Assembly: GCF_026130165.1 (NCBI RefSeq)
Contig: NZ_JAIHOM010000003.1
Coordinates: 24,347-88,346 of the forward strand
DNA: 64,000 nt
Reading direction: 5' to 3'
From: Spirulina subsalsa FACHB-351
GTDB taxonomy: Bacteria > Cyanobacteriota > Cyanobacteriia > Cyanobacteriales > Spirulinaceae
Position numbers and translations under genes: made by a program. How positions within the stretch are numbered: position 1 is the first letter of the stretch; each line of letters opens with the position of its first letter. The notes below the pieces were generated by a model. The model had not been told where the DNA came from. It did no database searches and saw only the letters and a program-made list of their open reading frames with translations. Positions 11,259-43,658 of this stretch are shown piece by piece.

Positions 11259-12284
11259 CTAAAATTGAACCTTTTGGACTTGACAAAGCATTAAGCCAAA
11301 CCACTCTTTTTCATCAACCCATCCCCCAATAGATTTTAAACCCTGTTGACTTAAATAGTCGGGTAACGTTTGCCAGTTAAACTTACGAGAAATTTCCGTG
11401 TGGATAGTTTCTCCAGCTTTAAAATCTAGGGTTAAATTGAGGCTGTTTAAACTTACTTTATGGTCCGCTTGCGCGTCTAAGTACATCTCAATTTGATGGT
11501 CTTTGCTGTTATAAATTGCCCGATGTTTAAACAAACTCAAGTTAAAGTTACCATCAAAGCGCCAGTTCAAATGTTCGAGCATATTTAGATTAAAAGCGGC
11601 CGTGACTCCTTGACTGTCATTGTAAGCCGCTTCCAGCACATCAGGGGACTTTTGTAAATCCACTCCCAGTAAAAAATAGTCTCCCGGTTGTAATCCTTGG
11701 GCGACTTCTTGTAAAAAGCGATCGCAATCTTGGGAAGTAAAGTTACCAATACTACTCCCTAAAAAGATGACCAAGCGCCCCGGAGGAGTATTTTCGATCA
11801 ATTGTTCTAATGCCTCATCATAAGTGCCAACTAACCCAGTAACTTTTAAATTAGGGTAATCTGTAACCAATTGTTTGGCACTTTCCACTAGAATCTCTGC
11901 ACTCACATCAATGGGAACATAATGCACAGAATCCCCCAACGTTTGATAGGCATTTAACAACAAACGGGTTTTTGTAGAACTGCCACTGCCCAACTCGACA
12001 ATTTCACAAAGTCCAGTCATAGCAGCAATTTCATTGGCACACTTTTGTAGAATACTCGCCTCAGTGCGGGTGGGATAATATTCCGGGAGTTGACAAATTT
12101 GCTCAAACAGTTGAGAACCTTTGGCATCATAAAAGTAACGAGCAGGCAAGGTTTTAGGAATTTTTTTAAACCCTTCAATAATTTCTGGGTCAAAGTTAGG
12201 GTTATAAATGGGTTGATTGTGATGCAGATATTGAATCTCAATATCACCAACAAGCGACGGGCTAGTTTGAGCAGATGAAATCAT
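11259..12284 (-). CDS. egtD: L-histidine N-alpha-methyltransferase EgtD (ergothioneine biosynthesis)
   Basis: 341-aa SAM-dependent methyltransferase that trimethylates histidine to hercynine, the first step to ergothioneine. Family features are LPARYFYDAKGSQLFEQIC, LPEYYPTRTEA, the SAM motif IVELGSGSSTKTRLLL, YVPIDVSAEIL, and LVIFLGSSIGNFTSQD. The length is standard. The partner sulfoxide synthase EgtB is not adjacent: neighbours are moaE (convergent) and chlB (divergent, 755 bp away). Start chosen at the ATG 12282-12284. Confidence 0.93.
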   Translation of the reverse strand: MISSAQTSPSLVGDIEIQYLHHNQPIYNPNFDPEIIEGFKKIPKTLPARYFYDAKGSQLFEQICQLPEYYPTRTEASILQKCANEIAAMTGLCEIVELGSGSSTKTRLLLNAYQTLGDSVHYVPIDVSAEILVESAKQLVTDYPNLKVTGLVGTYDEALEQLIENTPPGRLVIFLGSSIGNFTSQDCDRFLQEVAQGLQPGDYFLLGVDLQKSPDVLEAAYNDSQGVTAAFNLNMLEHLNWRFDGNFNLSLFKHRAIYNSKDHQIEMYLDAQADHKVSLNSLNLTLDFKAGETIHTEISRKFNWQTLPDYLSQQGLKSIGGWVDEKEWFGLMLCQVQKVQF

Positions 12285-14566: not shown

Positions 14567-14605
14567 CTTTTAACCGCTAATCTGGTTCAAAAATCCTTGC
14601 ACCAG

Positions 14606-14680
14606 AAACCCGATTTCTTGACCGTTATTCGTCATCCGTTCACCTGACCGATTACTAATAATCGGTGAGAAATCGGGTTT
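14606..14680 (+). terminator. Nested hairpin downstream of chlB
   Basis: Outer arms AAACCCGATTTCT (14606-14618) and AGAAATCGGGTTT (14668-14680) form a 13-bp perfect stem followed by TT and a short T-rich stretch. Inside it, ACCGATTA/TAATCGGT (14647-14654 and 14659-14666) forms a second 8-bp hairpin. A plausible terminator for chlB, or a decayed palindromic repeat. Confidence 0.65.
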
Positions 14681-14885
14681 TTCTCCCAAGATATAAAGCA
14701 ACATCTCCAAGCTGTATAAGCCCTTGCTTTTCAGTAAAACTACGCAACCCTAACTATAATATAGCTATTCCTAATGAGACGTGAACTCTGGGCTATTGTC
14801 CTATGTCGATTCCAGGCGAGCCTTTTTTGCACGACTCAGATAGGTTCGCTATATTACACAAATATTACAAAAAATAAAGTTTGAC

Positions 14886-14914
14886 TTGACAACCCAACGC
14901 AATCTTAGGGATAA
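14886..14914 (+). promoter_or_regulatory. Possible promoter of the two-gene cassette
   Basis: TTGACA at 14886-14891 matches a -35 box. A spacer of 17 nt leads to GGATAA, a poor match to TATAAT. It lies 39 bp upstream of the ATG at 14953. The match is partial. Confidence 0.25.
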
Positions 14915-14952
14915 GTAGAAAAATTCATCCATCCCACTAGACTTTAAGCGTC

Positions 14953-17900
14953 ATGGTCAATCAACTCAGAGAAAATAACAATGATCTGCCTACCGTAGAT
15001 TATAAGGACTTACTGACACAGATTATTGACACACTGCAAACCTCATCAGGACCCTATTTTAGCATTATTGAAAAAACAGTTGAAAACAAATCTAACAAAA
15101 CTGGAACATCCGATCAATCCGAAAAAAAATCCTATCAACGTTTTATTTTAGATATTGATCAAATTGCTACAACTGTCTCTCAAAAACCAATCCCCAATCC
15201 ATTAAGTCGTATTGGTTATCATAAAATAACAACCCTTAACCTAGTCGCAGAATGCCAAGAACAATTTCCCAGCCAGATTAGGCAAATCCAGCAACTTCTT
15301 CAAAACCTACTACAAAACGCTGTCAAACAATATTTACAAAAACAGAGAAAATCACCCCTTCCTCTTCCAGAATTTATCAAGCAGTTAATTGTCAATTTGT
15401 CAAGTTTTGACCAGAGCAAAGCTACAGCTAATTTTAACTATCCTTTCAGCACCCCTAACCAACTGTACAAGCAGCGATTAACTCTTGATAATCAATCCAC
15501 CCGAGAAAAATGTTTGCGCTTTCACAAGTTAACCATTCGCGTCAATCATGGGACAAACTTTGACGAGCAAGTTAAAGAGGGAATTTTCAACTATTTAGAC
15601 CAAAATTTTAACAACTACTCTGCACAGGAGCAAGAGGAATTAGAGGAGATTGTTGACGACTTATATAATAAACGGCAAGAACCGAACAATGATTTTTCTA
15701 AACTGAAGAAAATCATTAATCAAGAGACATTAGGTAAATTAAAACGCAAAACTCAGATTTTTTATCTCCAGTTTTTGTTAGACCAATATTATCAGAACAG
15801 AAAAGAAGAAACCGAGGAAGAAGGAGCAATTTATTTACAAACTTTAATTCGACGACTCCAGTATATTGATGAATTTATAAATTTAGAGCATTACGCTGAC
15901 GGTGATTATGAAATTACGCACTCCAAGGGCAGCATTAATTACCGAGATATATTTGCTCGTGAAGATGCCTTTAAGGAATTGCCTGTTATCCCCCTGATTG
16001 TCGGAAATCTAGGGGAATCTCGTCTAGATGGAGCCATTGAATTTACACTGGGTCTAAAACTTAAGCTCAATGGAGATGTTAACACATCTGAAGGTGAATC
16101 TTCTTTTCAGTATTACCTTGATTTGTTCAATCCTGATAGTTCACTTCATCAAGAAACCCTCAAAAAACGATTTGGTTTGCAAAGAATCCTCAAAGTTGCT
16201 TTGCTTTATTTCTTTGTCTTTGCTTGTGACAATCCTAATGAACCAGATTATCACCCAATTAAGGATCTAAACTATAATCCCATTGAAAAATTCGAGTCAA
16301 ATATTTTACCCGCTTTCCGAATATCTGAAACGGATATGTTCGCTATGTTAGTGAAAATTCGTAAAGGTTTGATTGGTTATAAAGTCGAAGAAAAAATCAA
16401 TAAACTTGTTGGTTTTCTTAAAAAGGTAATTGACTATAAAACTCTAGCAAAACCCCAAGAAAAGCCAGCCTATCTGACCTTAAAAAACCGTCTACTGAAA
16501 GACAACCTCCGAGAAATCATTGACGAACAAACAGTATTTGATAAATCGGTGACAGGTAATCCTAAGTTAGCGTTGAAATATATAGATGTTACTGAAGCAC
16601 GATCTCAAGAAAATACCTTTTTGAGTATTCCTGTCACCCTGATTATTGGTGATTTGCACTATTTTTTAACTCAAGACAAGCAATCTTTCAAGATGCAGTA
16701 TGACATTGAACCTGTTAAAGCGTTACCTATCATTTTCTATGTGAAGAATCATCCAGCATCTGCTCAATACTATGAAAATCAATTCAACAAACGGAATTGC
16801 TTAGTTTTCCCCCATCAACAAGCAAAACCCAGTGAGACAGAGAACTTTTTCTATAACTTCACTTTTTCGCTCCTGACTTTCACTACTTTAAGTATTTTGC
16901 TCAAAAAAGAACGCTTATTTTTACCCCTTTTACGTCTAGATATTGAAAAAGGTGATAGTGCGGGATTGCGCGAGAAGTTTATGTATAACTTCTCTAAAGT
17001 TTTAGCACATTTATTAAATGAACAACATCGTTCTAATGCACAGGGGATTGATGTTCGTTCTCCCAACTCTTATAAGGTTCTCAATGCCATGAGTTCCCTA
17101 TATTCTGTGCTACCCAAAACCTTTACCCTTCCTCAGCTAACACAACTAGATAAACTGGCAATTATTATTGTCTCTAGTCGTGAACATGATCGGAGTTGGA
17201 AACCGGAGATTAAGCAGAAATATTCTACCCTTATGGGGGAAGTGGTAGGCATCCTGCGGGAACCTAATAATACAATCAAGTATCGTCTCATTCAGACCTT
17301 TTCTGCCAATTATGATCGGGAGACATTATTCACACAACCTATTGTCATGGCTGATGTTATTCAAAAGTTATATCGTCAAGGATATCGACATATTATTTAT
17401 ATTGCCAAAGCACCCTACACCAGCACCTTACATTTAACCCAAAATCAAGATGATGAGGACTTATTCTTTATGTCTAAGGATATCATGCGGTTACTCAAGG
17501 GACAGTATCAGGATTTAAATATCTACCCCATGTTTTTCGACAAATACTATGTAGTCCCCTTGGAAAAACTAGCCCAATCCCTTTATATTGAAGATACAGC
17601 AGAACTGACTCGTTTAGCTGAAGATGACAATAAAATGTTTGCTGTTTTCTTCAACCTATTTAATGGTCAAGCCGTAAGAGAAGTCAATCGAACCTATCGA
17701 GGAGTGATTTCCTACAGCACCTTGTTGAATTTTTATGAGGGAATTCTAGGAGATCAAAAAATTCGGCAAGGATTAATTGATGCAGGACAACTTAAGCAAG
17801 ATATCTTACAGTATCTAACACTGTTTCACTTTGCCAAATATGAGAAAGGGGGTAAAAAGCTCCAGTTAAAACTTGACCCCTATGAGAATTTAATCGGAGA

Positions 17901-18009
17901 TAAGTCGGTGAGTAAGTTAGCGTTAATTCCCCATGCTAACGAAAAGGTTGAGTTCAATGTTTTGGCTTTTTTAACTCGCGTTCAAGAAATTTTACACACC
18001 AAACAGTAA
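14953..18009 (+). CDS. Large protein of unknown function, first gene of a two-gene cassette
   Basis: 1018 aa, not recognised. No signal peptide or membrane segment is seen; it is rich in Lys, Asn, Gln and Ile and its DNA is AT-rich compared with neighbours. Visible features are an acidic/coil-forming region at about 215-300 (EEQEELEEIVDDLYNK), repeated short beta-strand-like segments, and a C-terminal region (about 733-935). In that region alternating hydrophobic strands (LAIIIVSSRE, GEVVGIL, HIIYIAKAPYTST, IYPMFFDKYYVVPL) and helices resemble the strand order of RNase H/PIWI-like domains; the canonical catalytic Asp residues are not obvious. The next gene, a helicase, starts 2 bp after the stop, so both are almost surely co-translated. 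A role in nucleic-acid handling or defence is inferred from that context only. Confidence 0.6.
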   Translation: MVNQLRENNNDLPTVDYKDLLTQIIDTLQTSSGPYFSIIEKTVENKSNKTGTSDQSEKKSYQRFILDIDQIATTVSQKPIPNPLSRIGYHKITTLNLVAECQEQFPSQIRQIQQLLQNLLQNAVKQYLQKQRKSPLPLPEFIKQLIVNLSSFDQSKATANFNYPFSTPNQLYKQRLTLDNQSTREKCLRFHKLTIRVNHGTNFDEQVKEGIFNYLDQNFNNYSAQEQEELEEIVDDLYNKRQEPNNDFSKLKKIINQETLGKLKRKTQIFYLQFLLDQYYQNRKEETEEEGAIYLQTLIRRLQYIDEFINLEHYADGDYEITHSKGSINYRDIFAREDAFKELPVIPLIVGNLGESRLDGAIEFTLGLKLKLNGDVNTSEGESSFQYYLDLFNPDSSLHQETLKKRFGLQRILKVALLYFFVFACDNPNEPDYHPIKDLNYNPIEKFESNILPAFRISETDMFAMLVKIRKGLIGYKVEEKINKLVGFLKKVIDYKTLAKPQEKPAYLTLKNRLLKDNLREIIDEQTVFDKSVTGNPKLALKYIDVTEARSQENTFLSIPVTLIIGDLHYFLTQDKQSFKMQYDIEPVKALPIIFYVKNHPASAQYYENQFNKRNCLVFPHQQAKPSETENFFYNFTFSLLTFTTLSILLKKERLFLPLLRLDIEKGDSAGLREKFMYNFSKVLAHLLNEQHRSNAQGIDVRSPNSYKVLNAMSSLYSVLPKTFTLPQLTQLDKLAIIIVSSREHDRSWKPEIKQKYSTLMGEVVGILREPNNTIKYRLIQTFSANYDRETLFTQPIVMADVIQKLYRQGYRHIIYIAKAPYTSTLHLTQNQDDEDLFFMSKDIMRLLKGQYQDLNIYPMFFDKYYVVPLEKLAQSLYIEDTAELTRLAEDDNKMFAVFFNLFNGQAVREVNRTYRGVISYSTLLNFYEGILGDQKIRQGLIDAGQLKQDILQYLTLFHFAKYEKGGKKLQLKLDPYENLIGDKSVSKLALIPHANEKVEFNVLAFLTRVQEILHTKQ

Positions 18010-18011
18010 TC

Positions 18012-21000
18012 ATGATGAAATCAGAAATTTCTGCGGATTTAGGCCGTTTATTTGAAGTTGGCTTTAATTTAGGGTTGTTAACGGGCATCAAGCAGTCTAA
18101 GGTACAACATTCCTATGGAAATTTGTATCAAAAAGACTTGCAAAATATCCGATTTTCTGAGATGGCGAAAACCTTATTAAGTCAAGTCACCAGTCCTCAA
18201 GAAAAAAGGGTTTTAGAAAAGTGGAGTCAGTTCTTTTTGTTACGAGGTTTTTTAGCGGGGTTAAATTTTTGGCGAGAGTATCTGGAATTTGTTTTTCCGG
18301 GGGAAAGTTCAAGGGTGGAGGTGGTTTATTTGCAATGTTGTTTTAGGGGAGACAATAGTTTAGGACAAAATCGCAAGGAGGGGGACAGTTGGGAACGAGA
18401 TGTTTTGCAACAGTTTCCTAATCTTTCTTCGGTGGATTCTATTATTGCACGCTACAAACAAGGAGGACAGTTTCTCAAGGCAGATACTCTGTTATTGTTG
18501 CGCTTAAATAGGAGACAGGTTAAGTATAGACTGGTGTGTGTTGATTTATCTGCTTTTGTTGCTCAGTTTGCTCCTGAAGGGGAAGATTTAGGTTTTATTC
18601 GGATTATCAAGAATTTATTGTGGCGAGAGATTAATCATTTTCGCTCTAAGAGTGTGTTTGCTCAGTTACGACTGGATACCAGTTGCTTAGACTACTCATT
18701 ATCACAGGCTTTGCGCAGTTATTTCAATGCGTTTTACTCTTCTGATAAGGAGATGGTGAAGTTAATTCAAGCTGGGGGATATGCTTACAGTTTTTATCAA
18801 TTTCTCTGCGAGAGGGAAATTATTAATCCAGAGGATGGGAAAACCTCAATTCTCTTTAATATTATTGGATATACCAATCGTGGACTCTCTTCTGTTTGCG
18901 TGAATCCCCAACAACAGGAAAGTCAGGAATTTTTAGCCACTTGCCAGAAGATTTATCAAGAATACGAAAGAGATCAGGGGATTGATGAGACTCGGGAGCG
19001 TGTGTTAAATAAGATTAAACGGAGTGTGTCGCGCAGTTTTGAGGGGGGGAGGGATTTTGTTAATCAACTCCTGAGTATTACTCCGAATCAGAGGACTTGT
19101 ATAGAACATCAAGAAATCATTACAGGATTTGCTAATTCTGTGGGGGAGGTGTCTCCTGAGTTGCGGGAGAAACTGGGATTGGGGGAGGGGATAAATCTAC
19201 AAGATGCCCATCAGGAGTTAGTGATGCGATCGCTTTCTCCCGACAATTCCCGTCCTTTCCTCTTCCTGACGGGGAATCCGGGAATTGGGAAAACCACCGC
19301 GATCGCCAAATTCCTACAAAATCATGCCGACGAGGGGTTTTTATTCCTCTATGCCAGTCCTCGGAAACAGGTCAATCTCGATATCCTAGAGAAGTTCAAA
19401 AAGCGCCACACTCAGCAACTCTTTCAGGATGGGGTGTTTACCCTTAACTCCCACGCCAACCTGATTAAAAACAACTCTGGCCGCCCTACCATTCAATATC
19501 AGTCTAATACACACCAAGAACATTTTCAACAATCCGGTATTGATTTTAAGGATAGTCGGATTCCAGAGAGTAGCAGAAACCGTCAAATTCCCCTAGAACG
19601 TCTTGATCAAAAGACCATTACTCCAGCCGAAAAATCTTCAGCAGGAGTCTTGCAGAGTGTTGCTAAAGCTATAACTGTATTAATCAATGAAAACATTTCT
19701 CATCAAATTGTGGCTACCGTTTCCATCCAATCTCTTAAACAAACTCGTCAAGGGGATACATTAGACCATTTGCAGGAAATCTTTAAAAATGCTTACCAGG
19801 AACGCGACCGAAAAATTTTGCCCGATAAAATGCAGAATATCTCCCGCAAACTCAAACATCTAATTATTATGATTGATGAAATTACGGGAGATGATACGGG
19901 AGTTGCTTTTTTACAACGCATTGAAGAATTTATCCGTAAATATAAATTAACCGATCCCCAGTATGGCTTTAACTGCAAAGTGATCATTGCCGATGCGTCT
20001 TTAGTCGATGCCTCGGTAATTAATAAACACTTAGAAAAAATTGAACCAGAACCGGATAAAATTTACTTCAGACATTGCCAAACTCCCCCTGAAGCCATTT
20101 CCCTAAAAAGTTTCCAATTCAAACATCATCCCGCTACTCTGATCAATACCAATGCTTACCCAGCCAAACGTTTAACCATCACCTATAAAGTTTTTGTTCA
20201 ATCCTATGCGTCTCAGGAGTCTGACAGCTTGCGTAGACAATATGAAAAGCAACTCGAAAAACAAGAAACCGACCGAATTTTTTCCGATGTGCAAACCTTG
20301 TTAGCCAATCCCCAAGTTGAACAGATTATTGTTTATATCCAAAATAAAAGTAAACTGACCATCCTGATTGACCAATTAACCCAAAGCTTACCTAAATTTA
20401 GCAAAGGAGAAGACTATTTAGAAGTTCATGGCGACATTTCAGAATGGGAAAAACAGCAACTTGAGCAATATAAAAATCAAGTCCGCGTGATTTTCATGAC
20501 ATCCTCTGGGAGTCGAGGTCTATCCTTCCCTAAAGCGAGACATATTCTAGTTGAAATCCCTCGCTTTGCCATTGAAAAAAACCTGATGGAAATTATCCAA
20601 GTCATTTATCGAGGTCGGGGAGATCGAGAGATTGATCAACAGGATAAGTTTTTAACATTTTACCTGACAGAACGAGCCGTTTATTATAAAGAAGATGTAA
20701 AAAGTTCCTTGCAGAAAAGTATTTTAAACCTGTTTAATATTCTACTCTTACTCAAAGCTGCGATTTTAACCCGAATTCAGGGAGTGAGTCCGATTGGTAG
20801 TGATCAATTTTTAATCATTCCCATTGGGGGAAAATCCATGAGTGCAGCCGGACAAACCTTTTCTAATCAATTGGCTAGTTTAGTTCAGAGATTGCAAAAA
20901 GAAACCGCTAAAAATCCCAAGGATACTGTTCTTAAAGAGATTTTAGAGCAGTTAGAACCATTATTGGCGGCAACTGATTTTAGGCTGCATCAGAACAATG

Positions 21001-21695
21001 AGATCCCTAGCTTATCCCATGATATTGCTCAAAACTCCCTGTCGTACCTCCAGTTAAATCAAGATTTTACCCAGCAGTTTCTTAAACCGTTGCAGGGTAA
21101 AACTTTAGATCATTTACTCCAGTTTAATCATCTCGAATTAAGCTATTTAACGGGTAGTTTATTAATTGTTCCGTTAGCAGAAAAAAGGCTTGAAGAGACG
21201 TATTTATTGCGCCTAAATAACATTCTAAAATATCAAGATGGTCACTTACTAGAATTGATGAAAAAAGTCAGTTTCCGTCCCCAATATCCAGATGAGTTAA
21301 AAGAGCAGATAGTCAATGCTATCCAGTTAATTGAAGCGGTGAGAGACTCGGAACGCTCCCAACAATTTCAACAATTCAGTCAACGTTTAGAACGATATTA
21401 TGCTATTCCCCTTTTCGTCTTTATTGTGGGTGATATTTTGCGAGAATTTTTTGAGCAAAAGCAAGAACAAGCAAAAGAAGATTCATTTCGGGAAATTTTA
21501 GCTCAATATGTCCGGTCAATCTATCCCGTTGATTCTAATATTTTACCGATTGGCTATCAGTATGAAGAATTTCCTTTTGTCGTGTTTCACAGTTGTAGTT
21601 TGAAAGAAATCCGTCAACAGGCTTTCTCAGAACAATACTTACTAAACTCTCCGACGTTAAATGTTTTGAACTTAATTTTATCAAAACCTGATTAA
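18012..21695 (+). CDS. SF2-type helicase-like ATPase, second gene of the cassette
   Basis: 1227 aa. Helicase motifs in order: Walker A TGNPGIGKTTA at 420-430; Walker B/DExx IIMIDEITGD at about 619-628 (D622, E623); a second RecA-like lobe from ~770 with IIVYIQNKSK, motif V-like FMTSSGSRGLSFPKA, and motif VI-like QVIYRGRG at 863-870. About 190 residues separate Walker A from DExx, so there is an insert in lobe 1. The N-terminal ~180 residues carry a pattern like a PD-(D/E)xK nuclease fold (GDSWERDVL with E128, KADTLLLLRL with D158, YRLVCVDLS with D178) in which the usual catalytic Lys is Ser180; if real, it may be inactive. Residues from ~930 on are of unknown type. It starts 2 bp after the upstream gene with no good ribosome-binding site, implying translational coupling. 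An in-frame ATG follows at 18015. Confidence 0.72.
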   Translation: MMKSEISADLGRLFEVGFNLGLLTGIKQSKVQHSYGNLYQKDLQNIRFSEMAKTLLSQVTSPQEKRVLEKWSQFFLLRGFLAGLNFWREYLEFVFPGESSRVEVVYLQCCFRGDNSLGQNRKEGDSWERDVLQQFPNLSSVDSIIARYKQGGQFLKADTLLLLRLNRRQVKYRLVCVDLSAFVAQFAPEGEDLGFIRIIKNLLWREINHFRSKSVFAQLRLDTSCLDYSLSQALRSYFNAFYSSDKEMVKLIQAGGYAYSFYQFLCEREIINPEDGKTSILFNIIGYTNRGLSSVCVNPQQQESQEFLATCQKIYQEYERDQGIDETRERVLNKIKRSVSRSFEGGRDFVNQLLSITPNQRTCIEHQEIITGFANSVGEVSPELREKLGLGEGINLQDAHQELVMRSLSPDNSRPFLFLTGNPGIGKTTAIAKFLQNHADEGFLFLYASPRKQVNLDILEKFKKRHTQQLFQDGVFTLNSHANLIKNNSGRPTIQYQSNTHQEHFQQSGIDFKDSRIPESSRNRQIPLERLDQKTITPAEKSSAGVLQSVAKAITVLINENISHQIVATVSIQSLKQTRQGDTLDHLQEIFKNAYQERDRKILPDKMQNISRKLKHLIIMIDEITGDDTGVAFLQRIEEFIRKYKLTDPQYGFNCKVIIADASLVDASVINKHLEKIEPEPDKIYFRHCQTPPEAISLKSFQFKHHPATLINTNAYPAKRLTITYKVFVQSYASQESDSLRRQYEKQLEKQETDRIFSDVQTLLANPQVEQIIVYIQNKSKLTILIDQLTQSLPKFSKGEDYLEVHGDISEWEKQQLEQYKNQVRVIFMTSSGSRGLSFPKARHILVEIPRFAIEKNLMEIIQVIYRGRGDREIDQQDKFLTFYLTERAVYYKEDVKSSLQKSILNLFNILLLLKAAILTRIQGVSPIGSDQFLIIPIGGKSMSAAGQTFSNQLASLVQRLQKETAKNPKDTVLKEILEQLEPLLAATDFRLHQNNEIPSLSHDIAQNSLSYLQLNQDFTQQFLKPLQGKTLDHLLQFNHLELSYLTGSLLIVPLAEKRLEETYLLRLNNILKYQDGHLLELMKKVSFRPQYPDELKEQIVNAIQLIEAVRDSERSQQFQQFSQRLERYYAIPLFVFIVGDILREFFEQKQEQAKEDSFREILAQYVRSIYPVDSNILPIGYQYEEFPFVVFHSCSLKEIRQQAFSEQYLLNSPTLNVLNLILSKPD

Positions 21696-38561: not shown

Positions 38562-39512
38562 TTAATGATTTCCCCCAACTCCCACCCAGTGGCTTAAATC
38601 TCGATGTAATAACTCGCTCAACTGTTCAATTTCTGGCCTAAATTCTCGCTGTAAACGTTCTTTTAACTCAGGATTAAGAGGTGAACGAGATTTTTGTTCA
38701 ACATTGTATTGTTCTAGACTCCCTCTTAAGCTTTTGCGAATCCGAGAGGGAATCAGAAAGCGCACAACAGAACGTAAAGATTTAGGGGGACGACGTAAAA
38801 ATTGCTGAACAGCAATATTGCGGACTTGACGATTAGCATTAACCACCTTAAAATCGGCTGCAAAATCATCTCGACACCCTAAAAACTGTAAAGTCTTTCG
38901 ATACACAGCTAGGGTATCTTGCTTGAAATCATCAAAAATAATGATCTCTACATTCTCTCGTCCAAAAATATCTAGATACCGCTTGACCTGTTCCGTATAA
39001 CAAGCAATTTTCGAATAAAAAAAACATTCAACGGGATGATCCCTTTTTTCAGGAATACCCATCCCTTTTTGCCGGGTAGCTTCTGCCTTTAAAGCTGTTG
39101 CAAAATCTGCAATATTTTCATCTCCCCAAAAAACCAACTGTGAATGCCAAGAATACATCATTTCTAGAGGATTCCTGAGCATAATCAAAATTTTTGCCTC
39201 AGCATTAAACTGCTTAATCTCCTGTGCCGCCCGCTTAAAATAGAGATAAAATACAGATGATTCTCCCCGAATTTTTTCATCCTTAGTCTCATTAAAATAA
39301 CTGAGATATTCCTCAAGAGTAGGTCGGCTAAAATTTAAATCACTACCAAAAAAGTGGATTTCCCTTTTCCCTCCAGCTAAATTGTCCGGGGAGTCGGGGA
39401 TGTTGAGCATAAAAATTTCTGGGTGTTGCTCTAAATAGCTGTGCATTGCCGTTGTGCCGCATTTAGGAGCGCCAACAATGAAAAAGTTGGGTTTTTGAGT
39501 AGGTGTTGTCAT
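38562..39512 (-). CDS. Sulfotransferase
   Basis: 316 aa from the ATG at 39510-39512; a GTG at 39542 would add 10 residues. It shows the 5'-PSB loop for PAPS binding (FIVGAPKCGTTAMHSYL, including Lys) and the 3'-phosphate-binding segment (LIMLRNPLEMMYSWHSQLVF). It transfers sulfate from PAPS to a hydroxyl of an unknown acceptor, possibly a cell-surface glycan. It is oriented opposite to its neighbours, and behind its 5' end lies the 144-bp repeat. Confidence 0.88.
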   Translation of the reverse strand: MTTPTQKPNFFIVGAPKCGTTAMHSYLEQHPEIFMLNIPDSPDNLAGGKREIHFFGSDLNFSRPTLEEYLSYFNETKDEKIRGESSVFYLYFKRAAQEIKQFNAEAKILIMLRNPLEMMYSWHSQLVFWGDENIADFATALKAEATRQKGMGIPEKRDHPVECFFYSKIACYTEQVKRYLDIFGRENVEIIIFDDFKQDTLAVYRKTLQFLGCRDDFAADFKVVNANRQVRNIAVQQFLRRPPKSLRSVVRFLIPSRIRKSLRGSLEQYNVEQKSRSPLNPELKERLQREFRPEIEQLSELLHRDLSHWVGVGGNH

Positions 39513-39545
39513 GAAGAATTTCTCACTATAATGGGGTTGCACTGT

Positions 39546-39689
39546 TATAGCATTTCCATTTGAGTTTTGTAATCCACAAGGAAAAGCAAAGGGAACAAGG
39601 AACAGGGAACAGTATACAAGGGTTACAAGGAGCTTGAAGTATTATGAGAAACTTCCCTGATAGTTGATCAATGATTTGGAAATGCTATA
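39546..39689. mobile_element. 144-bp MITE-like element with 13-bp inverted ends
   Basis: Ends TATAGCATTTCCA (39546-39558) and TGGAAATGCTATA (39677-39689) are perfect inverted repeats. The inside holds AACAAGGAACAGGGAAC repeats and no open frame. A partial second copy, in reverse, is at 333-370. It lies in the gap between the sulfotransferase and a membrane glycosyltransferase gene. Confidence 0.65.
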
Positions 39690-39728
39690 TACAATTACTT
39701 GCCAACATAAGCAACTGATCATTAAGTG

Positions 39729-41102
39729 ATGAAACCTCAAAATCTTACAATCCTTGCATTAGTTTTATTGTCTAGCGTTTCTGCTATTTTGTCCACTCTC
39801 TTAAATATTCCCGGCTGGATATTAGCTGTTCCTATCATCTTGTTATTGTTACATTTTAAAGATAAAGAAGCTCAAGATCACTGGGTTAAAACTACATTAT
39901 TATGGGGGATTAATTTAGGATTATTACTGTTATTGTGTTATCATATTTTTACAATTATTGTTAATAACATAATAAATCTTCCAGACTGGGACTTTCTAGC
40001 GTTTTGGCTAGGAGGAAAAGCGGCTGTTAGTGGTCTAAATCTGTATGATGCTAATGTGCTAAAATCCTTGGTTATTTCCTTTAATTTAAACGAATACATT
40101 GGTGAAGGATTTACTCACGCTTTTCTCTGCTGTGGTTTTCCTTACCCTCCCCCCAGTATCTTGTTATTTATTCCCCTCGGGTGGTTTGAACCTAGATTGG
40201 CGTTGATATTCTGGTATGGGGTTAATATTTTGGTTTTAATTGTAACCATTATTCTGTTGTGGGAAAGGTTCTTTAAACATCATAAAATATTGGGCTTACT
40301 AACTGTAACTAGCTTAACTTTAACTATTTTTGGCGTAAAAAGTAACCTCCTCTTTGCCCAAACCAATTTTATGGTTCTCCTAACTATTTTAATGTATTGG
40401 CGGAATCAGTCTAAACTCATAGGGGGGGGGTGGTTAGGATTAGGCATTTTAATTAAACCCTTTGTTGCTCTACTATTGGTTTATGTGGTTGCTAGACGAC
40501 AATGGAGAATTGTAGCATCAGCTTTTGGGGTATTAATAGGACTGACTTTGGTAACTTTGTTAATTATTGGAGTCAAGCCATTTCATACTTATTTAACGGA
40601 TGCTCCCTATTCTGCTTTACCGTTTGAAGTGTATATTGAACCCATCAACGGGTCACTATTAGCAAATATATTACGCTTGACTAATTACACACCTTCTGGT
40701 GGTTCACCGATTTTCCATCCGCTACATATTACCATTGGATTATTATTAGGTTTAACGACTCTGTGGGTTTGTCTTAGGGTAAATCAGAAAAATGAGCAAT
40801 GGGCTTTTATGTCTATGCTGATGTTATCTTTAATTATCTATCCCGGTTCTCTTTTGCATTCCAGTGTAATTAATATTATCCCAATTCTCTTTTTATGGGG
40901 TAATCGTCACAAGGTTGAAACTGGACATTGGTGGTTACTGGGACTAATTACTGTAGAATATATGCTGTTACATAATCAGTATATGTTTATTGCCAATATG
41001 TTGCTCTGGATTGTTTTCACTGGAATTAGTTTAAGCCTAATTCATCCTCAGCAGTTGGCAAAACTTAAAGCGTTGAGTAGAGGACAACTAACACAAGAGT
41101 AA
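39729..41102 (+). CDS. GT87-like (DUF2029) membrane glycosyltransferase
   Basis: 457 aa, strongly hydrophobic, about a dozen transmembrane segments. After the second or third helix comes DWDFLAFWLGGKAAVSGLNLYD, the acidic loop typical of GT87/DUF2029 polyprenyl-phosphate-sugar-dependent transferases. FPYPPPSILLFIPLGW and LGLGILIKPFVALLLVYV also fit. The DNA is AT-rich relative to neighbours. Start chosen at the ATG at 39729, 3 bp behind a GTG at 39726. It ends tail to tail with, and overlaps by 15 bp, the STAS gene. Acceptor unknown. Confidence 0.8.
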   Translation: MKPQNLTILALVLLSSVSAILSTLLNIPGWILAVPIILLLLHFKDKEAQDHWVKTTLLWGINLGLLLLLCYHIFTIIVNNIINLPDWDFLAFWLGGKAAVSGLNLYDANVLKSLVISFNLNEYIGEGFTHAFLCCGFPYPPPSILLFIPLGWFEPRLALIFWYGVNILVLIVTIILLWERFFKHHKILGLLTVTSLTLTIFGVKSNLLFAQTNFMVLLTILMYWRNQSKLIGGGWLGLGILIKPFVALLLVYVVARRQWRIVASAFGVLIGLTLVTLLIIGVKPFHTYLTDAPYSALPFEVYIEPINGSLLANILRLTNYTPSGGSPIFHPLHITIGLLLGLTTLWVCLRVNQKNEQWAFMSMLMLSLIIYPGSLLHSSVINIIPILFLWGNRHKVETGHWWLLGLITVEYMLLHNQYMFIANMLLWIVFTGISLSLIHPQQLAKLKALSRGQLTQE

Positions 41103-41414
41103 CCGAATCCCAGAATCAAAAACTTCCTCTAAACTGTCAATGATTTTAAACTCTTTGTCTAACTCGGTAATTTCTAACATATAACGCACTTGCTGCTTGA
41201 CATTTAATAAGTACAAACGACACTTATACTGTCTCGCAGCCCGACGGACAGCCATTAAAGCAGTTAGCCCAAAGTGGTTCACTGAATTGACTTGAACTAA
41301 ATCAATGACCCAGCAAGAATTATCGGGGGCTGGTAGTAAGTTGACGACTTTTTGTTGCAGTAGGGAAGCACCTTTAATATCTAAATCCCGTTGGGGGCGT
41401 AGAACAATATTCAT
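41088..41414 (-). CDS. STAS-domain (anti-anti-sigma-factor-like) protein
   Basis: 108 aa, a lone STAS domain (VIDLVQVNSVNHFGLTALMA, VRRAARQYKCRLYLLNV). The position that holds the phosphorylated Ser in SpoIIAA-type proteins (D-S-S-G) here reads N46-H47-F48-G49, so ordinary phosphorylation control is unlikely. It starts 21 bp after the histidine kinase stop on the same strand, so it is probably the last gene of that operon. Its 3' end overlaps the GT87-like gene by 15 bp. Confidence 0.85.
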   Translation of the reverse strand: MNIVLRPQRDLDIKGASLLQQKVVNLLPAPDNSCWVIDLVQVNSVNHFGLTALMAVRRAARQYKCRLYLLNVKQQVRYMLEITELDKEFKIIDSLEEVFDSGIRLLLC

Positions 41415-41435
41415 TGTACCCTTAATTGATATGGA

Positions 41436-43658
41436 TTAATTGATGTTTAATGTAAAATAGAAAGTTGCCCCTTGATTGACTATTGCTTCGGCCCAAATTT
41501 TGCCCCCATGCCGTTGAATAATACGTTGAACTGTGGTTAAACCGATCCCTGTTCCTTCAAATTCTCGTTGAGAATGTAAACGACCAAAGGTGGTAAATAA
41601 TTTGTCGGCATATTCCATATTAAATCCTGCGCCATTGTCGCGGACAAAATAGACTATTTCGGTGTTTTTTTCCAGATTTTGATCTGAATTATCATCTAGA
41701 CTCTCCTCGTTGAGTTCCCCTGTTTCTGTGGGAAGGGATAATGCTCCAAATTCAATTTTAGTTTCGGTTTGTTTTTTGGTATATTTCCAGGCATTGCCTA
41801 GGAGGTTTTCTAGGGCAACTTGTAGTAATCCCTCATTGCCATAAACGATTAAGTTAGGGACAATAGAACAGATAACCTGACGTTGGGGATTATTGCGTTG
41901 AAAGTCTTGTATAATTTTTTCCGCCATTTGACTTAGGTCAACTTGACCAATGGTTAACTCTGTGCGGGTCACATGGGCTAATTGTAGAAGATCGTGGATC
42001 ATCTGGCGCATTCTAACACAGGATTTTCTAATTTGCTCTAGATAATCTTTGCCTTCGTCATCTAAACAGTCTCCATATTCTTCTAATAGTATTTGGTTGA
42101 AGAATTCTATATGGGAAAGGGGGGTTTTTAGGTCATGGGAAACGGTGCGGGAGAAGGATTCAAGTTCTTCGTTGACTAATTCGAGTTCTCGGGTACGCTC
42201 TTGTAAGGAGGAATTCAGATTCTTGATTTTAAGTTCGGCTCGTTTGCGCTCGGTAATATCTCGACCTACATAAACAAATTCCTGCATTCCTTCTTCGGTT
42301 TCAATGGGGGAACGGGAGAAGGAAACGGATATTTCTTCCCCTGTTTTTTTACAACAAGTAATTTCGGTTTGGGATAAAGTGTGATGGTGTTGTTTATCTT
42401 GTAGAATATCAAAGTAGTAGGGAGCAAATATTTTGTTAATCGGTTGTCCTAATAGTTCAAGTTCCCGATAACCAAAGAGTTTTTGGGTGGCGGGGTTAAT
42501 TTTTTTGATTAGCCCGGTTTTGGTGGTGACAATCAGAGCATCAGCCATTGACAAAATGATCTGGTTGATGTAGTCTTTGGTGCTAGAAAGTCTTTTCAGT
42601 AAGAGTTGGGTTTCGTTGGCGGTTTGCATCAGCTTTTGCTGGAATACCATGCGTTCGGTAGCGTTATTGAGCAGGATGATTAAACATCTTTTCCCTGCTA
42701 TACTTTCTGGGTATTTCATGACATGAATATCAAAATATAAAGGATTTTCATGTTGGGGGTTTTCTGGTTGGTCAAAGCGACCTAATCCTAGGAGTTCAAA
42801 TGATTTTTTCTTTCCTTTAATGATTTGGATAAGGCTATCTTCTGAGCCAATAAACTCAGGAAAAAACTTGCGCAAATCTTCACCTTTTTTTAGGGTGTAT
42901 TTTCCATCAGAAAAGCGAGCGACGTTTTCGGAAAATTCTTTAATGGTGAAGTTACTGTTAACAATGACATAATCTTGGTGAATGACGGGGTTTGGGGTGA
43001 CTTCTTGTAATTGGGACTGGGTATCAATGAGTAAATCGCCGACTAATTGCTGCATTAGATTGGCCCGGTCTAAAATGCTGGTTAAATAGTCGTTAGCGGT
43101 TGTATCTAGGGGGACTTGTCGGGATTGTTCTAGAAGTTCCGAGAGTTGATTTTTAAATTGAATGAGGGTTTGGCGGAGGTGATGGGTTGCAATGTAGGGA
43201 AATTGCATTAAGGTCGCTTGCTTAATGTTGTCGAGATGGAGGGGGCGTAAACTGCCATTATTGTGGAATTGAAAGCGTTCTGGGTCTGGAGTTGCTGGTT
43301 GAAGTTGTTTGTGCCAAATGGTGAGACGGAGGTTAATTTGCTCGGGGGAGGCGGGAAGAATGAGATAATCGTTGCCACCATGATTGAGCCAAGGTTCGAG
43401 GATGGTGGGGTTTTCGTGAGTGGTGATGGCAATGCAGAGGAGGTTAGGAAAGCGCGATCGCATTTCTTGGCAGAGGTGTAGACGGGGGTCTAATTCCTCC
43501 CCCAAGGTCATCCAGACCCAAGGAAACACTTCTTGGGCAAAGATTTCCCAAGCGCTATTGACATCAGAACAACGGGTAATCTGATAATTTTGCGATCGCA
43601 AGACTTGTTCCAACGAATTTAGGTTATGGCTTGCATCGTCTACTATTAAGGTCTTCAT
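41436..43658 (-). CDS. Histidine kinase with degenerate N-terminal receiver domain
   Basis: 740 aa. An N-terminal receiver-like domain (1-115: TLIVDDASHNL) keeps the two acidic residues D7 and D8, but the phosphoacceptor position is Thr51 (WVWMTLGEE) and the conserved Lys is Leu (YLILPASP), so it is a pseudo-receiver. A long middle part holds a PAS domain (ALIVTTKTGLIKKINPATQKLFGY) with PAC (EEISVSFSRSPIE). A coiled-coil is followed by the kinase core with H-box FSRTVSHDLKTPLSHIEF, N-box LLGNAWKYTKK, G1 DNGAGFN and G2 GTGIGLTT. No membrane segment is seen, so it is probably cytoplasmic. The STAS protein follows on the same strand. Confidence 0.88.
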   Translation of the reverse strand: MKTLIVDDASHNLNSLEQVLRSQNYQITRCSDVNSAWEIFAQEVFPWVWMTLGEELDPRLHLCQEMRSRFPNLLCIAITTHENPTILEPWLNHGGNDYLILPASPEQINLRLTIWHKQLQPATPDPERFQFHNNGSLRPLHLDNIKQATLMQFPYIATHHLRQTLIQFKNQLSELLEQSRQVPLDTTANDYLTSILDRANLMQQLVGDLLIDTQSQLQEVTPNPVIHQDYVIVNSNFTIKEFSENVARFSDGKYTLKKGEDLRKFFPEFIGSEDSLIQIIKGKKKSFELLGLGRFDQPENPQHENPLYFDIHVMKYPESIAGKRCLIILLNNATERMVFQQKLMQTANETQLLLKRLSSTKDYINQIILSMADALIVTTKTGLIKKINPATQKLFGYRELELLGQPINKIFAPYYFDILQDKQHHHTLSQTEITCCKKTGEEISVSFSRSPIETEEGMQEFVYVGRDITERKRAELKIKNLNSSLQERTRELELVNEELESFSRTVSHDLKTPLSHIEFFNQILLEEYGDCLDDEGKDYLEQIRKSCVRMRQMIHDLLQLAHVTRTELTIGQVDLSQMAEKIIQDFQRNNPQRQVICSIVPNLIVYGNEGLLQVALENLLGNAWKYTKKQTETKIEFGALSLPTETGELNEESLDDNSDQNLEKNTEIVYFVRDNGAGFNMEYADKLFTTFGRLHSQREFEGTGIGLTTVQRIIQRHGGKIWAEAIVNQGATFYFTLNIN

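Follow-up and report, generated by a model that had tools for sequence, protein, structure and literature searches.

We describe a pair of adjacent genes, P1 and P2, in a 64,000-nucleotide stretch of the Spirulina subsalsa FACHB-351 genome (contig NZ_JAIHOM010000003.1, positions 24,347 to 88,346 of the forward strand; hereafter the window). The pair probably consists of a predicted noncutting Argonaute and a superfamily 2 (SF2) helicase, the latter likely with a nuclease domain, which would together carry out guide-directed destruction of plasmid or phage DNA. P1 (14953..18009, + strand; 1018 amino acids [aa]) has no curated family and is Argonaute-like by predicted structure; P2 (18012..21695, + strand; 1227 aa) is identified as an SF2 helicase with a putative N-terminal nuclease-like domain from Pfam matches, the fold of a relative (P0066), and conservation. 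In the list of open reading frames (ORFs) the two are adjacent on the same strand, start with ATG, and are separated by 2 bp, and no purine-rich ribosome-binding site is found in the bases preceding the P2 ATG (caccaaacagtaatcATGATG), an arrangement that an earlier note made from the sequence alone (the original prediction) had described correctly. This two-gene unit is conserved as a pair over a patchy range of hosts, is carried on plasmids, and has defense genes among its neighbors in proteobacteria; P2 has a helicase core, and both proteins contain invariant residues.

P1 is predicted to contain a MID-PIWI module

No Pfam match of P1 exceeded the threshold, and scans against NCBIfam and PADLOC found no family at E values up to 1; the PADLOC release used is that of 2023 and covers systems named to then. 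A search of 5.8 billion proteins returned 407 relatives of P1 and 642 of P2, each among about 8000 scored candidates. Among the 120 relatives listed for each protein, the named ones were cyanobacterial, and the annotations were mostly "helicase" or "helicase-related" and "hypothetical." Two P1 relatives, P0156 and P0212, are publicly named "SEC7 domain-containing protein" and "ribosomal protein S20," and look misnamed. When the C-terminal half of P1 was used for a profile search of 5.8 billion proteins, 498 matches were obtained, and the 120 listed carried no Pfam domain.

Structure prediction followed by Foldseek, a check that the original prediction had suggested, was run on P1 and returned Argonaute and Piwi proteins as top matches. 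Over its C-terminal half, the AlphaFold2 model can be aligned with the MID-PIWI module of Argonaute, the protein that bears the guide in RNA interference: ranks 1 to 18 of the Foldseek search against PDB were all Argonaute or Piwi structures, and nearly all of the 50 rows listed by VIA-align were Ago, Piwi, or Med13, at modest Z scores, with a Med13 chain in the top row. The VIA-align rows for AfPiwi and AfAgo span residues 576 to 1012, and the predicted MID-PIWI module is placed at about these residues (16678..17988, + strand). Within it, the secondary structure of the model delimits a predicted PIWI (RNase H-like) domain at about residues 734 to 1015 (17152..17997, + strand).

Residue conservation was counted in 138 full-length homologues, comprising 75 from branch A, 59 from branch B (a second branch, described below), and 4 distant members. 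In P1, G698, Y921, H959, and P976 are found in 138/138, Q697 in 137/138, and R661 in 136/138. The QG pair belongs to a MID-like motif, Y678-x3-K682...Q697-G698...K708 (residues 678 to 708; 16984..17076, + strand), and in the model and alignment it sits where MID helix order would place it. Window P1 itself carries Y678, K682, Q697, and K708. Beyond QG, the pocket pattern Y-x3-K...Q...K varies: K682 is present in 41 of the 75 branch A homologues, and branch B has Y678 in 57/59 but Q at position 682 in 55.

A protein with an Argonaute fold need not use a guide. P1 could instead be a protein scaffold, as has been argued for Med13, while P2 would by itself sense the ends of DNA or intermediates of replication, in the manner of stand-alone helicase defense systems. 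We consider this unlikely, since Q697-G698 and other MID-PIWI residues are near-invariant across very distant members, a pattern that would fit a retained binding site.

For a guide-binding P1, cleavage of the target is not expected. The positions of the PIWI catalytic aspartates (740, at the end of strand 1, and 819/820, at the end of strand 4) were set by secondary structure, without superposition; position 740 is V, Y, I, or F in 138/138 homologues, and position 819 is K, H, Q, N, or S in 135/138. Both aspartates of the DEDX set appear to have been lost, and P1 is predicted to be noncutting because the residues at both expected positions differ. Inactive Argonautes likewise lack the DEDX aspartates.

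Several observations weigh against a MID-PIWI fold. It was predicted in a single structure model, the weak point of the assignment, and 116 of the 1018 residues in that model, several of them within the PIWI region, have a predicted local distance difference test (pLDDT) score below 50. No sequence-level link of P1 to any PIWI family was found. When PDB sequences were searched with P1 by hmmsearch, Argonautes were absent at E values up to 10; the curated Piwi and pPIWI-RE models matched neither P1, nor 16 A4 members, nor 9 distant or divergent members; and PF13032 (RNaseH_pPIWI_RE) had no match in the P1 scans. Comparison by hhalign with 7 cyanobacterial PIWI-RE and 16 cyanobacterial prokaryotic Argonaute (pAgo) proteins also gave nothing. 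The inputs were branches A, B, and A+B, each also as the C-terminal half, and A+B plus the 4 distant members; 8 PIWI-RE and 18 pAgo proteins had been found, of which 1 and 2, respectively, were dropped as too short. This last null result decides nothing, because the control comparison of PIWI-RE with pAgo was weak as well (probability, 1.8; E value, 0.027).

The missing sequence link and the poorly modeled residues also favor a different account, that the PIWI assignment is a modeling artifact, P1 being an unrelated large adaptor and the pair a two-component helicase defense of another kind, for example type III Druantia (DruH plus DruE). This we find distinctly unlikely: Argonautes make up nearly all of the leading fold matches, the invariant QG falls at the place expected for a MID domain, and no PADLOC Druantia model matched window P1, window P2, or 16 P2 relatives.

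P2 joins a helicase core to a candidate nuclease site

P2 exceeded the Pfam cutoffs for Helicase_C (34.2 bits; cutoff, 23.5) and AAA_22 (29.1 bits; cutoff, 27); the original prediction, which had recognized a helicase in the second protein and no family for the first, is supported on both counts. The model of the P2 relative P0066 (1200 aa; pLDDT, 67.8; predicted template modeling score, 0.53) matches SF2 helicase folds over residues 379 to 924, and with a shift of about 9 residues to window P2 these matches, together with conservation, place the P2 helicase core at about residues 389 to 934 (19176..20813, + strand). Its motifs are a Walker A sequence, GNPGIGKTT (residues 421 to 429), MIDE (620 to 623), MTSSGSRGLSFP (829 to 840), and QVIYRGRG (863 to 870). 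The C-terminal region (20814..21692, + strand) is mostly helical in the P0066 model, which has low confidence over much of the C-terminal 300 residues; in the 138 P2 sequences this part contains no lysine column conserved above 95% and no conserved DxK.

The candidate nuclease site lies N-terminal to the helicase core, at residues 152 to 257 (18465..18782, + strand), and reads G152...D158...D178-x-S180...K246...K250-x2-Q253-x3-Y257. G152, D158, K246, K250, Q253, and Y257 are each conserved in 138/138 sequences, D or E occupies position 178 in 138/138, and S180 is found in 135/138. The PD-(D/E)XK/RecB pattern is G...D...[D/E]-x-K...QxxxY; in P2, S180 occupies the usual place of the lysine, and the only lysines invariant in all 138 sequences are K246, K250, and K427 of Walker A. 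From this motif we infer a PD-(D/E)XK or RecB-like nuclease site with a displaced lysine.

Matches of window P2 to PADLOC models were weak (best, mad8; E value, 6e-4). Those of 16 P2 relatives (mad8 in 7/16, MkoA in 3, and PDC-S49 and others in 1 or 2 each; best E value, 8.5e-7) were taken as shared helicase/ATPase similarity. A helicase of the DinG/XPD type was ruled out by the absence of conserved cysteines, only one cysteine column being occupied in more than 60% of the 138 sequences (106/138).

The two genes are conserved as a pair

Branch A profiles were run against 386 cyanobacterial genomes, matching P2 in 54 and P1 in 43, and all 43 P1 genomes belong to the taxonomic order of the window's genome. 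The original prediction had called for a count of co-occurrence across cyanobacteria: the P1 and P2 matches lie at most 500 bp apart in 36 of the 43 genomes, 1.2 to 7.5 kb apart in 3, and on different contigs in 3, and 1 genome has a short P1 fragment only. Ten of the P2 matches represent the second branch, B, each with its own adjoining P1-like gene, one of which is truncated. The branches are homologous in P1 over 950 columns (E value, 2.5e-26) and in P2 over 1163 (E value, 3.3e-92). An initial scan of genome contigs with a single protein had given no match.

A scan of an 84,980-species collection with both branches found 260 stretches encoding a relative, and the best 80 of these, corresponding to 74 loci, were retained; they include Methylomonas, Chromatium, Thauera, Cupriavidus, Rubrivivax, and many Nostocales. 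P1 adjoins P2 in 66 of the 74 loci. Two of the other 8 start at a contig end, and 6 have no recognizable P1, 4 of these with a truncated P2. The order is constant, with P1 before P2 in 84/84 loci measured (both ORFs full length and on the same strand), and the genes overlap or are separated by 11 bases or fewer in 48/53 branch B and 14/31 branch A loci. Divergence of P1 correlates with that of P2 (r = 0.97 for 31 A loci and 0.986 for 53 B loci), a correlation due in part to shared organismal ancestry. No third gene cluster was common to more than 18/41 or more than 10/74 loci. Taken with the Argonaute-like model of P1, the pairing and correlated divergence favor the suggestion in the original prediction that the two proteins would work together on nucleic acid.

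Broken, fused, or truncated copies occur in five genomes (G046, G302, G121, G193, and G256). In G256 (C100:4793-8113), a single 1118-aa frame spans P1 model positions 4 to 589 and P2 positions 704 to 1201, likely a deletion fusion. Two loci show insertions. About 7.4 kb separates P1 and P2 at L037:6510-13843 (G181), including small same-strand ORFs and a 1054-aa ORF that carries an NPPY motif and resembles an adenine-methylating restriction-modification enzyme, a defense-type gene inside the pair; at L059:8680-10385 (G223), three opposite-strand ORFs, possibly an insertion element, lie between the genes. A 1028-aa ORF 5' of a branch B helicase in Achromatium (L151:6240-9326) was suspected to be P1 and gave no match to the P1 profile.

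The original prediction had named presence in almost all cyanobacteria, with a housekeeping role, as the finding that would speak against it. That the pair serves cyanobacteria in housekeeping DNA repair or replication is very improbable on the distribution, with only 43/386 genomes positive and P1 present in 3 of 13 genomes of the window's own family (two of the 10 lacking it are only about 80% complete), and the broken copies and plasmid carriage are further points against it. Flanking genes differ between families, except for other local blocks and for 11 loci of one family (f6), in which the genes on one side are conserved; inheritance there is therefore vertical, as a housekeeping pair would have it.

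Plasmid carriage, gene neighborhood, and composition

Eleven plasmid records matched P2, with 80% or more of the query covered in 6, and 6 were typed as conjugative. The hosts are Nostocales, Stanieria, Acetobacter, Acinetobacter, and Cupriavidus, and the pair is carried on plasmid C of Trichormus variabilis ATCC 29413, a strain that can be cultured. At four divergent plasmid loci (Acinetobacter, Acetobacter, Nostoc N6, and Cupriavidus), the 5' gene matches the P1 profile with 243 to 1085 bits. The plasmid of Acinetobacter sp. PK01 (L162) has a very divergent pair beside a DUF4011 protein, a HigB-family toxin with a helix-turn-helix protein, and a Fic protein, and on that of Acetobacter persici (L165:8073-12055) P2 is annotated as two genes, of 998 and 329 aa, with a 4-base overlap. 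A phage or prophage origin was considered and rejected; there was no match in phages (tblastn with window P2) or viral contigs (pattern scan).

Among the proteobacterial neighbors of the pair are restriction genes of types I, II, and III and Shango SngA. These came from 20 neighbors scanned singly, of which 9/20 matched at 1e-15; the 20 were hand-picked, mostly large, from proteobacteria and a few metagenome-assembled genomes with other labels, and had no matched control. Partial matches within those 9 were to PD-T4-1 (two), MkoA (Mokosh), and LmuA (Lamassu). In a wider scan of 100 of 160 neighbors, also without a matched control, TRIP13, SAVED, and effector models and ZacB were among the first 25 of 132 PADLOC families; we take the TRIP13, SAVED, and effector models to be CBASS parts. 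Near the cyanobacterial pairs, no defense-gene enrichment was shown, and none is claimed, a weak point of the defense reading. There, 62 branch B neighbors from nine loci were compared with 72 of 188 control ORFs, and 93 versus 54 PADLOC families matched at 1e-10; the controls were drawn from 19 regions chosen arbitrarily in these genomes and could not be told from the branch B neighbors, only the first 25 families of each set were listed, and many models are redundant (PD-T4-6 appearing in one and Cas12f in the other). The proximity to known defense genes that the original prediction had proposed as a check was seen in proteobacteria, in a set lacking a matched control, and was not borne out for cyanobacteria. 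Its wider suggestion, a defense or genome-conflict module outside the named systems, agrees with the patchy range, broken copies, plasmid carriage, and restriction, Shango, and other defense neighbors in proteobacteria.

In a FastTree tree of branch B P2 proteins, Cyanophyceae form one clade, and Betaproteobacteria and Gammaproteobacteria require 6 and 4 changes, respectively. Because of this pattern, transfer within proteobacteria is suggested, and transfer between phyla looks rare.

In the window, the pair follows an intergenic region (14567..14952, strand not assigned) that lies 3' of chlB. The GC contents of P1 and P2 (0.361 and 0.391) are well below those of chlB (0.485) and the ABC gene (0.515), and their combined Lys, Asn, and Gln contents (21.8% and 19.7%) are above those of the same genes (14.6% and 14.8%), as originally reported. 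Composition by itself is weak evidence of transfer, because the gene at 11259-12284 in the same window is likewise AT rich (GC, 0.401). A second AT-rich stretch, with GC of 0.36 to 0.40, lies at 39001-43000. A recent transfer into this genome, which the composition had suggested, is not supported: P1 likewise comes directly after chlB in the genus's other genome (identities there are 89% for P1, 98% for chlB, and, at a separate location, 95% for the ABC gene), so that the pair is not new at this site.

Proposed mechanism and relation to known systems

The closest model for how the pair might act is DdmDE, which eliminates plasmids in Vibrio cholerae and combines an inactive Argonaute, first suspected through structural modeling, with an SF2 helicase bearing a PD-(D/E)XK nuclease; once the Argonaute, which binds DNA guides, has paired with plasmid DNA, it brings in the helicase, and the helicase is loaded onto the nontarget strand and cuts (PMC12409362). 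By analogy, the pair would most likely work as DdmDE does in outline. P1 would take up a short guide in its MID pocket (Q697-G698) and, having lost the PIWI aspartates, would leave the target uncut; guide-target pairing would lead P1 to recruit or activate P2, which would then load, move along one strand, and use its N-terminal site to cut or unravel that strand.

A wider proposal is plausible, and we hold it tentatively. P1 may found a separate bacterial PIWI/Argonaute branch that sequence profiles miss and that moves together with a helicase of its own, in which the nuclease is N-terminal and the catalytic lysine has moved to a K-x3-K-x2-Q-x3-Y helix. After PIWI-RE and DdmDE/ApsAB, the pair would then be a third design in which an inactive Argonaute and a helicase-nuclease destroy DNA under the direction of a guide, one distributed across cyanobacteria and proteobacteria and the plasmids of both. 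Its basis in a single predicted structure and in conserved residues counts against it. Two of the few known PIWI branches came from remote homology (PMC3702460). If the proposal is correct, a further branch would be added to this small and important superfamily, extending guide-directed DNA defense to lineages whose proteins are annotated "hypothetical" or "helicase-related." It would also offer a testable reason for the resistance of some cyanobacteria to plasmids and conjugation, a new programmable-protein scaffold, and a natural series of designs for one task. The proposal is specific and can be tested in culturable strains. No report of the pair was found in the literature searched, in which subscription papers are largely missing and bioRxiv is not covered as such.

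Alternatively, the pair might belong to one of the known families, as a diverged form of PIWI-RE or of ApsAB/DdmDE. The parts list is identical (an Argonaute-like protein, an SF2 helicase, and a nuclease-like domain), and ApsAB, an antiplasmid system of E. coli ST38, has a similar range, being described mainly from Enterobacterales and also from other gammaproteobacteria, some betaproteobacteria, and cyanobacteria (PMC11096173). We judge this quite improbable, on features taken up for each system in turn; DdmDE and ApsAB are set apart by published descriptions, not by sequence alignment.

PIWI-RE is a bacterial PIWI branch with an SF2 helicase and a restriction-fold nuclease, for which guide-dependent restriction was proposed (PMC3702460). 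Like the pair, it unites a PIWI-type protein with a helicase and a nuclease-like domain. Its genes, in contrast, number three in a strict order, with the restriction endonuclease first and PIWI last, whereas the pair has two, with the PIWI-like gene first and no third gene; and its helicase is DinG, with a cysteine-rich iron-binding region (PMC3702460), whereas P2 has no conserved cysteine cluster of the DinG-like Fe-S kind. A further mark of PIWI-RE is an invariant R and E in an extension of the beta-sheet. PIWI-RE was found in 8/194 cyanobacterial genomes, the window's genome not being among them; neither PF02171 nor PF13032 matches in that genome. The divergent Argonaute fold of Med13 (MedPIWI) is also like that of the P1 model, but Med13 is a eukaryotic Mediator subunit without a helicase partner.

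ApsAB consists of a novel Argonaute-like protein with a MID-like Y-x3-K...QG...K motif and a helicase/nuclease protein; some E. coli ApsAB islands also contain Shango (PMC11096173). Window P1 has the residues of this motif, of which QG alone is general among the homologues. The printed ApsA motifs are GFGKS, DELH, SAT, QAVGRVER, and a C-terminal D...DVK, whereas P2 has GNPGIGKTT, MIDE, and QVIYRGRG and no conserved C-terminal DxK; and ApsB homologues were sought 3' of apsA (PMC11096173), whereas the Argonaute-like P1 is 5' of P2 in every locus measured. DdmDE resembles the pair as a two-gene unit of an Argonaute-like protein, here so by predicted model, and an SF2 helicase. As described, it differs in that the helicase of DdmD is N-terminal and its nuclease C-terminal, whereas the nuclease-like site of P2 precedes the helicase, and in that the Argonaute-like gene comes first in our pair. 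No row named DdmE or DdmD was among the fold rows listed for the P1 and P0066 models, which is not evidence of absence.

The best reading is that the pair resembles DdmDE, ApsAB, and PIWI-RE, yet lies outside each by at least one tested feature: outside PIWI-RE because of the sequence family, the number and order of the genes, and the type of helicase; outside ApsAB because gene order, nuclease position, and helicase motifs differ; and outside DdmDE, by description and not sequence comparison, because of the position of the nuclease.

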